Source of the DNA: Haloplanus vescus
GTDB lineage: Archaea > Halobacteriota > Halobacteria > Halobacteriales > Haloferacaceae
Direction of reading: 5' to 3'
DNA: 64,000 nucleotides
Assembly: GCF_900107665.1 (NCBI RefSeq)
Contig: NZ_FNQT01000001.1
Coordinates: 722,398 to 786,397, forward strand
This document shows, piece by piece, positions 5,160 through 7,941 of this stretch. Position 1 is the first letter of the stretch, and the number at the start of each line of letters is the position of its first letter. A program made the position numbers and the translations under genes. The notes below the pieces were generated by a model. The model saw nothing but the letters and a program-made list of their open reading frames with translations. It was not told where the DNA came from and searched no databases.

Positions 5160-6527
5160 ATGGAACACGTGGACGTAGCCGTGGTCGGTGGCGGCCCCGC
5201 CGGGTCGGCGGCGGCCCACGCGGCCGCCGAAGCGGGCGCGTCCGCCCTCGTCTTCGAGAAGGGCGTCCCCCGAGCGGACCGCGACGGCCTCGGCCCGGAC
5301 TCCACCGACGCCGCGGGCATCCTCGACTACTGGGTCGACATCATGGGCATCCACCCCGACGAGTTCCCCGACGGAATCCTGCTGTCGGAACTCGACCGAG
5401 CGACGTTCGTCGGCCCGACCGAATCCTGTGTCCTCCGGAGTACGGGCATCGACTCCTCCTACGACACGTTCGGCTACACCTTCGACCGCGCGGCGTTCGA
5501 CGATTGGCTCCGCGAACGCGCCGAAGGCGTCGGCGCCGACTACCACCTCGGCGTGACGGTGAAAGACGTCGAGACCGACCTCGGGAGCGACCCGCGTCAC
5601 ACCCTTCGCTTCGCGGACCGCGACCCCGTCGGCGCCGACTTCCTCGTCCTCGCCGACGGCCCGCAGCGAACTGTGACCAACCGCGTGCTGGACCGATATC
5701 TCGCTTCGCCCGTCACCGACCACCTCGGCACGACGACGGCGAACCACATCGCCTACCAAGAGCACCGCCGACTGCCCGCCGAACTCGCCGAGGAACTCCG
5801 CGGGTCGATTACCTTCTGGTGGGGACACATCCCCGGCCACACCGCCTACCCGTGGATTTTCCCGAACGACGACAACGTGGCCCGAATCGGGTTGACGATG
5901 CCCATCGGTCTCGACCTGTCGTCGGTCGACGACCGGGAGTCCTACGCGCTTCTCCGGCCCGACGACGACACCGTTCCGAGCGGTGGCGAGTATCTCCGCC
6001 GACTGCTCGAACACGAGTACGGCGACGAGTACGACGTGCCCGAGGACTTCCCCCTCGTCGAGGAGCGCGGGAAATCCAGCGGGACGGAGACGTACCCCAT
6101 CTCCTCGACGCGCCCGGTCGACTCCCCGGTCGACGCCGGCATCGCGGTCACCGGCGGCGCGATGGGCACCACGTCGGCGTTCCACGAGGGCGGCGACCAC
6201 GTCGCCGTCCGCACCGGTGCCATCGCTGGCGAACTCGCCGCGCGGGGCGACCTCTCGACGTACAACGACCGCTGGAAAGACGCCATCGGCGACGAAATCC
6301 TGCGCAACGTCACCATGGCCGACATGGTGCAGGACTACGGCCCGGACGACTGGGACGACATCTTCCGAACCGGGCGAAAGATGCTCGCCGACGAAGGCGG
6401 GTATCAGATGTTCGAACAGAAGTTCAGCGCCGGACTCGACGCCGCCAAACTCCTCCTCAGATATCGGTGGGGTAAGTACCGCAACCGCGAGTTCGTGAGC
6501 ATCCACGAGTCGGACTACGTCTACTGA
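5160..6527 (+). CDS. geranylgeranyl reductase family FAD-dependent oxidoreductase
   Basis: A flavoprotein of the digeranylgeranylglycerophospholipid reductase/FixC type. Such enzymes saturate the isoprenoid chains of archaeal membrane lipids or of quinone tails. The 455 residues begin with the FAD-binding beta-alpha-beta motif VAVVGGGPAGSAAAHAA. A second FAD contact follows around GIAVTGGAMGTTSAFHEGG, where the usual GD is replaced by GG. At 455 residues it is somewhat longer than the second homologue at 54420-55658. A TATA-like GATTAATACC lies about 27 bases upstream of the ATG, so the message is probably leaderless. It is divergent from the hydroxyacid dehydrogenase gene. The altered second motif may mean a different substrate. 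Confidence 0.85.
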   Translation: MEHVDVAVVGGGPAGSAAAHAAAEAGASALVFEKGVPRADRDGLGPDSTDAAGILDYWVDIMGIHPDEFPDGILLSELDRATFVGPTESCVLRSTGIDSSYDTFGYTFDRAAFDDWLRERAEGVGADYHLGVTVKDVETDLGSDPRHTLRFADRDPVGADFLVLADGPQRTVTNRVLDRYLASPVTDHLGTTTANHIAYQEHRRLPAELAEELRGSITFWWGHIPGHTAYPWIFPNDDNVARIGLTMPIGLDLSSVDDRESYALLRPDDDTVPSGGEYLRRLLEHEYGDEYDVPEDFPLVEERGKSSGTETYPISSTRPVDSPVDAGIAVTGGAMGTTSAFHEGGDHVAVRTGAIAGELAARGDLSTYNDRWKDAIGDEILRNVTMADMVQDYGPDDWDDIFRTGRKMLADEGGYQMFEQKFSAGLDAAKLLLRYRWGKYRNREFVSIHESDYVY

Positions 6528-6547
6528 CGCCGTCACGCAGGCGACCC

Positions 6548-6562
6548 GCAAGGCGTTAACCC
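6548..6562 (+). promoter_or_regulatory. TATA-like promoter element for the putative RNA
   Basis: AAGGCGTTAACCCC lies in the gap after the reductase gene. It resembles haloarchaeal TTAA-type TATA boxes. Its centre is about 22-26 bases upstream of the 5' strand of the predicted closing helix of the RNA at 6579. That spacing is what an archaeal promoter would give. Confidence 0.4.
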
Positions 6563-6578
6563 CTCCGTGTCGTAGCAC

Positions 6579-6790
6579 GGCTGCGTGCCTTTAGTCCCCG
6601 CCCGAGTACGCCCGTCAGGGCGCGATGACAGCGCGGAGAACCCGGGCACGCGACATGGGTGAATCCGGGACTCACTGACTCCGGAATAGCCAGCGGGGAG
6701 GTCTACCGACCTCCAGAACGTGACGCCGTCTCACGCATCCGACGGTCGCCCGGCACGAGGGTTAGCTAGCCGACCACGGCACGCCGCCAG
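6579..6790 (+). ncRNA. putative structured non-coding RNA, identity unknown
   Basis: About 210 bases without a credible reading frame but with nested complementarity. 6579-6589 can pair with 6778-6788 (10 of 11 positions), forming a closing helix. 6595-6601 (TCCCCGC) can pair with 6693-6699 (GCGGGGA). Internal hairpins are CGCCC-GTCA-GGGCG at 6609-6622 and GGAGGTC-TACC-GACCTCC at 6697-6714; the last competes for three bases with the second long helix. A box C-like GCGATGA (6622-6628) and a box D-like CTGA (6675-6678) occur between the helices. A TATA-like element lies at the right distance upstream and a TTTT tract follows at 6831. I do not recognise SRP RNA, RNase P RNA or tRNA in it on either strand. 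Strand is chosen from the promoter and could be wrong. Confidence 0.4.
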
Positions 6791-7059
6791 GGATGAGGCT
6801 AGACGTTAGTGTTCCGGGCGTACATCGACCTTTTACGCTGCGCGCTGGCGAAGCCAGCGCTCGGTAAACGCTCGACCAAAAGCACCCCTCGTTCCGGATG
6901 GTCACGCGTCGGCCTCGCGCTGACGTTCGTTCGCGCGAGTGAATCGACGGCGAGTCAGGAGTTTCGGACTACTCGGCGTCGACCGTTCGGCCCCGACGTG
7001 TCCACCGACCGTGAATCCTCCACCGTCCCGAGCGGACATTACGGCCAGTTTCGACGCTT
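6791..7059. other. non-coding gap with one strong hairpin
   Basis: No supported gene. 6842-6849 and 6853-6860 form a perfect 8-bp hairpin (GCGCTGGC, loop GAA). It is flanked by TTTAC and GTAAA that can extend the stem. Just outside lie ATCGACCTTTT and CTCGACCAAAA, near-repeats. The rest (6870-7059) holds only short frames rich in Arg and Ser that lack the acidic bias of real genes here. It may be the 3' region of both the putative RNA and the minus-strand gene ending at 7060. Confidence 0.5.
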
Positions 7060-7941
7060 CTACGCTCGCGTCGCGGCGTAGCGGACGGTGACGAGCGGAC
7101 AGCCACAGAGGCGAATACGCTGGTCCGCGAACACGGCGGCGTCCGCAATCCCATCGGCGTCGGGCGGGGCTGGTGCATCGGGGTCGCCCGCGGGTGCGAC
7201 GCCGAAGCGTTGGCTCGCCGGAAGCCGAACCGCGCCGGCGTCGGTGTGAAGATACAGCCCGCCGTCGGGACAGTCCGTCGTGAGCGCCACGCCAGTACCG
7301 TGGTTCTCCATCCGGAGGACGGTGGCGAGGCTGGCGCCGGGAAGTGGGACGGCGACGTTGACGACGCGTTCCCCGTCGGCGACGTGACTGGCGTAGACGG
7401 CGACGAAGACTCCCTCGCCGTCCTCGGTGGTGCGTATCCAGAGTCGCGGGTCGTCGCGCGGGTCGGCGGCCGCCCCCACCGGCGAGAGCGCGAACAGGTC
7501 GCTCGTGACGCGTTTCGGGTCGCCGCCCGGTTCCGGGAGATTCAGCTGTTCGACCCGACTGGTCCAGCAACTCGCGAGGCGCGCACCGAGACGGAAGGGT
7601 CGGTGCCACGCCGCAGTAAGGGTCATCTCGAAGTCACTCGTTCGCTCGTAGAGCGCCCGCACGTCGGGATGGACGGCCTCGGGGTCGAATCCGGGACGCT
7701 CGTAGGCGTCGAGTGACGCCATCTCGCCGGCGACGCGCTCGCCGCGGAGTCCGTGTCGGTCGGGCCAGTCCGGGCCGACGCGAGCGTTGCCGTGATGGGG
7801 CGAGAGGGGCACGTCGCGCGCCCCCGCGACGGCCCATCCGAGGGCGGCGGCGCAAGTGACGATACCGACGAGTCGAGCGTTCGAACCGCGGAGCACGGTC
7901 GGCGTAGGGCGCGCGTGACCGTAAGCGTCCGGCCGCGTCAC
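7060..7941 (-). CDS. conserved-looking protein of unknown function, one membrane anchor
   Basis: I do not recognise this 293-residue protein. One hydrophobic segment (LVGIVTCAAALGWAVAG, about residues 23-39) suggests a signal anchor. The rest is a soluble, probably extracellular domain of mixed strands with a conserved-looking core around RLWIRTTEDGEGVFVAVY and two nearby cysteines late in the chain (LCGC). It starts with GTG, and that codon overlaps the TGA of the upstream PQQ-propeller gene in a GTGA overlap (7938-7941). The pair must therefore be translationally coupled. A joint role at the cell surface is inferred from this coupling and from the Tat signal on the partner. Confidence 0.7.
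   Translation of the reverse strand: MTRPDAYGHARPTPTVLRGSNARLVGIVTCAAALGWAVAGARDVPLSPHHGNARVGPDWPDRHGLRGERVAGEMASLDAYERPGFDPEAVHPDVRALYERTSDFEMTLTAAWHRPFRLGARLASCWTSRVEQLNLPEPGGDPKRVTSDLFALSPVGAAADPRDDPRLWIRTTEDGEGVFVAVYASHVADGERVVNVAVPLPGASLATVLRMENHGTGVALTTDCPDGGLYLHTDAGAVRLPASQRFGVAPAGDPDAPAPPDADGIADAAVFADQRIRLCGCPLVTVRYAATRA

Follow-up and report, generated by a model that had tools for sequence, protein, structure and literature searches.

A two-hairpin box H/ACA guide RNA gene in Haloplanus vescus, very probably orthologous to the HP1/HP2 RNA of Haloferax volcanii

The window analysed is a 64,000-nt stretch of the Haloplanus vescus genome (contig NZ_FNQT01000001.1). Within it, a gene for an FAD-dependent oxidoreductase (5160–6527) and a convergent gene without a Pfam match (7060–7941) flank, on the 5′ and 3′ sides respectively, an intergenic stretch that a preliminary description had marked as a structured non-coding RNA lying after a reductase gene. 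This part of the description stands: a conserved RNA does lie downstream of the oxidoreductase gene. When the DNA from 6530 to 6830 was searched against 60 relatives, matches were found in 50 genomes and concentrated in two blocks (query positions 53–126 and 218–296, about 6582–6655 and 6747–6825), with a poorly conserved middle part between them. An alignment of 30 loci likewise contains two strongly conserved blocks, separated by a linker of 23–135 nt. The features of the locus are as follows.

6550–6559, plus strand: promoter, with BRE-like AA (6550–6551) and TATA-like TTAA (6556–6559), about 27 nt upstream of HP1
6583–6826, plus strand: H/ACA guide RNA gene (HP1, linker, HP2), its ends placed by means of the promoter and the two hairpins with their ACA boxes
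6582–6655, plus strand: H/ACA hairpin HP1 with its ACA box (6653–6655); covariance model R1, 101.5 bits
6583–6589, plus strand: 5′ strand of the HP1 lower stem, GCGTGCC, pairing with GGCACGC at 6645–6651; two-sided changes at 4 of 7 pairs
6594–6596, plus strand: HP1 5′ guide GUC, pairing with 23S GAC on the 3′ side of the target uridine
6598–6601, plus strand: HP1 upper stem CCGC, pairing with GCGG at 6633–6636; two-sided changes at 3 of 4 pairs, 100% of cells paired
6624–6629, plus strand: HP1 kink-turn-like element GATGAC, opposite CCGAG at 6602–6606; near-invariant alignment columns
6639–6643, plus strand: HP1 3′ guide AACCC, pairing with GGGUU on the 5′ side of U2621 (E. coli 2586)
6656–6745, plus strand: variable linker, 90 nt here and 6–173 nt in other genera
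6726–6745, plus strand: linker hairpin CCGTC/GACGG, directly abutting HP2
6746–6825, plus strand: H/ACA hairpin HP2 with its ACA box (6822–6824); covariance model R2, 102.6 bits
6747–6753, plus strand: HP2 lower stem CGCCCGG, pairing with CCGGGCG at 6814–6820; 100% of cells paired, two-sided changes at 2 pairs
6757–6764, plus strand: HP2 5′ guide GAGGGUUA, complementary to 23S helix 69 UGACCCUC
6766–6771, plus strand: HP2 upper stem, pairing with 6797–6802; two-sided changes at 5 of 6 pairs
6792–6797, plus strand: HP2 kink-turn-like element GATGAG, opposite CCGA at 6770–6773; near-invariant alignment columns
6805–6810, plus strand: HP2 3′ guide GUUAGU; GUUA pairs with UAAC in the Psi1915 register and UAGU with ACUA in the Psi1917 register

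The TATA-like element noted upstream of the RNA is confirmed as TTAA at 6556–6559 and is conserved in relatives. Across 30 relatives, T/T/A/A is enriched at positions −28 to −25 relative to HP1 and A at −34/−33; a TA at −11/−10, here 6573–6574, also recurs among them. Since these promoter elements recur in the relatives, the 5′ end of the RNA probably lies close to the first base of HP1. The minus strand of the region folds better (z −2.50), and an RNA on that strand was considered and rejected, because the gene is assigned to the plus strand by its promoter, by its ACA boxes and by the complementarity of its guides.

Both hairpins share one layout. Above the lower stem comes an asymmetric internal pocket, then the upper stem, a kink-turn-like CCGA/GATGA motif pair and an apical stem; ACA follows directly on the 3′ side. 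Compensatory changes, proposed at the outset as a check, bear this layout out, with two-sided changes in both stems, lower and upper, of each hairpin. Among 30 species, HP1 shows them at 9 of 15 pairs with 97.8% of cells paired, values reached by none of 500 shuffles (0/500), and HP2 at 8 of 16 pairs with 98.2% of cells paired; sliding the HP1 pairing scheme out of register lowers the paired cells to 18–55%. Folded alone, each hairpin is more stable than shuffled sequence (z −2.81 for HP1, −2.14 for HP2). An ACA box directly follows both lower stems, with both A columns invariant and C predominant. The conserved CCGA/GATGA pair in HP1 and HP2 would provide the site for L7Ae, its kink-turn character being judged by sequence.

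The targets of the two pockets were scored over all uridines of the 23S rRNA of a congener, with at least 3 pairs required on each side of the U-N; the congener was used because the 23S gene of H. vescus itself is missing from the assembly. No 16S or 23S rRNA gene was detected in this assembly, though it is 99.8% complete by markers; the genes were presumably lost when the repeated operon was assembled. For HP1, the best site among all 23S uridines is U2613 of the congener gene (GGGUU-[U]A-GAC, 5+3 pairs). The HP2 pocket scores best at U1948 (UAAC-[U]A-UGACCCUC, 4+8 pairs), and inspection of the pocket shifted by two bases shows that U1950 also fits (ACUA-[U]G-ACCCUC, 4+6 pairs); the HP2 5′ guide thus offers 8 pairs for Psi1915 and, through GAGGGU, 6 for Psi1917. 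These three congener positions equal Haloarcula 2621, 1956 and 1958 minus a constant 8, and the Haloarcula residues are pseudouridines corresponding to E. coli 2586, 1915 and 1917 (PMC2584109). The guide stretches are well conserved, none being retained in fewer than 104 of 108 sequences.

The bipartite complementarity surrounds an unpaired U-N, as in the H/ACA class, where about 14–16 nt to ACA are expected, and one register stands out. The distance from the start of the 3′ guide to ACA is 14 nt in HP1 and 15 nt for U1958 (Psi1917), and the 17 nt for U1956 (Psi1915) exceed the usual 14–15 and count against this register, unless the alternative fold that has been described as accounting for the long distance is adopted (PMC4652768).

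An RNA with these properties has been described before. For H. volcanii, HP1 was predicted to guide Psi2621 and HP2 to guide Psi1956 and Psi1958 (Grosjean et al. 2008, PMC2584109). The same work describes a long spacer between the two hairpins, their conservation in other halobacteria, and their homology to stems II and III of Pf7/Pab40 (PMC2584109). The H. volcanii guide is counted among those fully validated by experiment, with Blaby et al. 2011 cited in support (PMC4652768), and two H/ACA RNAs on one H. volcanii transcript were detected by RNA-Seq (PMC6490895). The locus in H. vescus resembles H. volcanii HP1/HP2 (Hvo1/Hvo2) in several ways: a single transcript would carry both hairpins, their order is the same, a long spacer separates them, the RNA is conserved in haloarchaea, and the predicted targets are 23S 2621 for HP1 and 1956 plus 1958 for HP2. 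The box H/ACA sRNA of H. volcanii that carries HP1 and HP2 is named sR-h45 in later literature. Close homologues of the locus occur in three Haloferax species.

Because structure, order and targets are those of the published H. volcanii RNA, the locus is read as its orthologue: a haloarchaeal two-hairpin box H/ACA guide RNA for U2621, U1956 and U1958, with a probability of about 96%. Identity with the H. volcanii RNA is suggested by the architecture, the targets and the closely related Haloferax sequences. The suggestion that the stretch could be a new haloarchaeal RNA is thereby overtaken, as HP1/HP2 with a long spacer had already been reported from H. volcanii and other halobacteria (PMC2584109). 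The RNA is known and essentially ordinary, the haloarchaeal version of a Cbf5-directing H/ACA guide for three 23S uridines.

Besides the structure, conservation and complementarity seen here, the genome encodes the protein partners: Cbf5, L7Ae, Nop10 and Gar1 are all found above curated cut-offs. By homology with H. volcanii, the gene should be transcribed in this species, the RNP should assemble and the reaction should proceed. HP1 and HP2 would each assemble with Cbf5, Nop10, Gar1 and L7Ae; the two strands of the guide pocket would hold the 23S rRNA by base pairing and present one uridine to Cbf5 for isomerisation to pseudouridine. HP1 is expected to guide U2621 (E. coli 2586) in the peptidyl-transferase centre, and the single pocket of HP2 would guide both U1956 and U1958 (E. 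coli 1915 and 1917) in helix 69, the target being shifted by two bases.

The linker is the part of the gene in which something further might be sought. It measures 90 nt and carries additional hairpins here, compared with 55 nt in the Haloferax species, and no functional difference was seen; besides the hairpin at 6726–6745, two more are present. In 26 of 30 relatives the linker closes with a stem of 5 or more base pairs right next to HP2, where dinucleotide shuffles predict 8.5; among 54 distinct linkers taken from named genomes, 39 have one, against 12.7 expected. These counts are not independent, as the sequences are related and some of the 30 and of the 54 come from the same or sister species. 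The sequences of these linker hairpins are completely different between genera. Selection may have kept the hairpin through this turnover as a functional part, so far undescribed, of the haloarchaeal H/ACA RNPs, a tentative idea that is rather unlikely to hold; if it were true, the hairpin might, for example, stack on HP2 and aid the switch of the single pocket between Psi1915 and Psi1917. The published descriptions consulted treat the linker just as a long spacer, and its hairpin is a modest extra lead. The linker is 6 nt long in Natrialba sp. SSL1 and 8 nt in a Natrialbaceae MAG, both without a linker hairpin, so the hairpin is not essential everywhere. HP1 and HP2 are nearly adjacent in these two genomes, as reported for Thermococcales.

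The same hairpin, conserved and not itself a guide pocket, could also hint that this H/ACA-derived RNA has a further role beyond the three sites, for instance guiding other RNAs or helping rRNA to fold, as could the 8-nt match of the HP2 5′ guide to helix 69, which is longer than needed. Such a role is improbable: nothing here requires a second one, and the linker shrinks to 6–8 nt in two genomes.

The preliminary description had drawn a single RNA of about 210 bases, ending at 6790 and closed by a long-range helix (6579–6589 with 6778–6788). That this is an RNA of a new class has next to no chance of being right. The helix can be drawn, and truncating the RNA at 6790 gives it as the minimum free energy fold; across the 30 species, however, 190 of its 207 cells are paired and none of the changes is two-sided, against 205 of 207 paired cells and 10 two-sided changes for the local HP1 stem that uses the same 5′ strand. 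There are two copies of GGCACGC, one at 6778–6784 in the HP2 apex, used by the long-range helix, and one at 6645–6651, used by the HP1 stem. The proposed inner helix (6595–6601 with 6693–6699) uses bases in the variable linker, a segment that most relatives either lack or replace by unrelated sequence. The RNA ends near 6825, about 36 bases further on, and with the ends set at 6583 and 6826 the minimum free energy fold contains both H/ACA hairpins in place of a long-range closed RNA. Whole-region minimum free energy folding gives a stability no greater than that of shuffled sequence (z 0.05, or −0.54 with the original boundaries), a lack of signal attributed to the cut-off 3′ end.

A box C/D guide RNA of unusual size, directing 2′-O-methylation, is scarcely credible either: GATGA and CCGA/CTGA-like motifs are present, GATGA and CCGA in both hairpins, but they lie between covarying stems as H/ACA kink-turn elements and not as C and D boxes, an ACA box follows each hairpin, the pocket complementarity on both sides of an unpaired U-N has H/ACA geometry and falls on known pseudouridine sites, and the ends consist of lower stems and ACA instead of the boxes C, D′, C′ and D, antisense 5′ of D/D′, and terminal C/D pairing of that class. 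The earlier guess of a guide RNA was right in kind, with pseudouridylation in place of methylation as the predicted function.

The two-hairpin H/ACA guide RNA is widespread in its class. Of 391 genomes sampled from the class, 384 contain a hit to the HP2 covariance model, and HP1 lies ahead of HP2 in every one of the 53 sources considered (relatives plus the window), as well as at named loci including those of Haloferax prahovense, massiliensis and sulfurifontis. Elsewhere in the phylum, a minority of genomes give weak HP2 matches (E 1e-7 to 5e-4), which is compatible with homology to Afu4, the H/ACA RNA of Archaeoglobus fulgidus that guides the Psi1956 equivalent (PMC2584109, PMC4652768) and is likened to HP2 by target, not by sequence. 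Another known system is Pyrococcus Pab40/Pf7, the Rfam family HgcG (RF00064). HP2 aligns weakly to its third and last hairpin, as the published homology predicts, and the alignment keeps the GGUUAG and GUUA guide stretches and the CCGA/GAUGAGG kink-turn; HP1, according to the same account, is the homologue of stem II (PMC2584109). HgcG has three hairpins, with II and III adjacent, whereas the haloarchaeal RNA lacks stem I and has a linker.

The Rfam search suggested at the outset was run: no Rfam 15 model reports the RNA at its gathering threshold. HgcG scores 10.3 and 6.3 bits, on HP2 only, against a threshold of 77 bits, which does not make the RNA a member of that family. Low-scoring matches to sul1, SOX2OT and AaHKsRNA22 were taken as chance. 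A candidate new RNA thus resolves into a known ribosome-modification guide, whose predicted modifications sit in helix 69 and the peptidyl-transferase centre, and a near-universal haloarchaeal RNA is one that Rfam 15 misses at its thresholds. The alignments form the basis of two covariance models, with which annotation pipelines could label the gene.

In a Natrinema plasmid record, a blastn match falls where no feature is annotated. One relative carries two copies of the whole gene, in an inverted repeat of more than 2 kb at 99.6% identity with one copy near a contig end, reflecting either a duplication or an assembly artefact.
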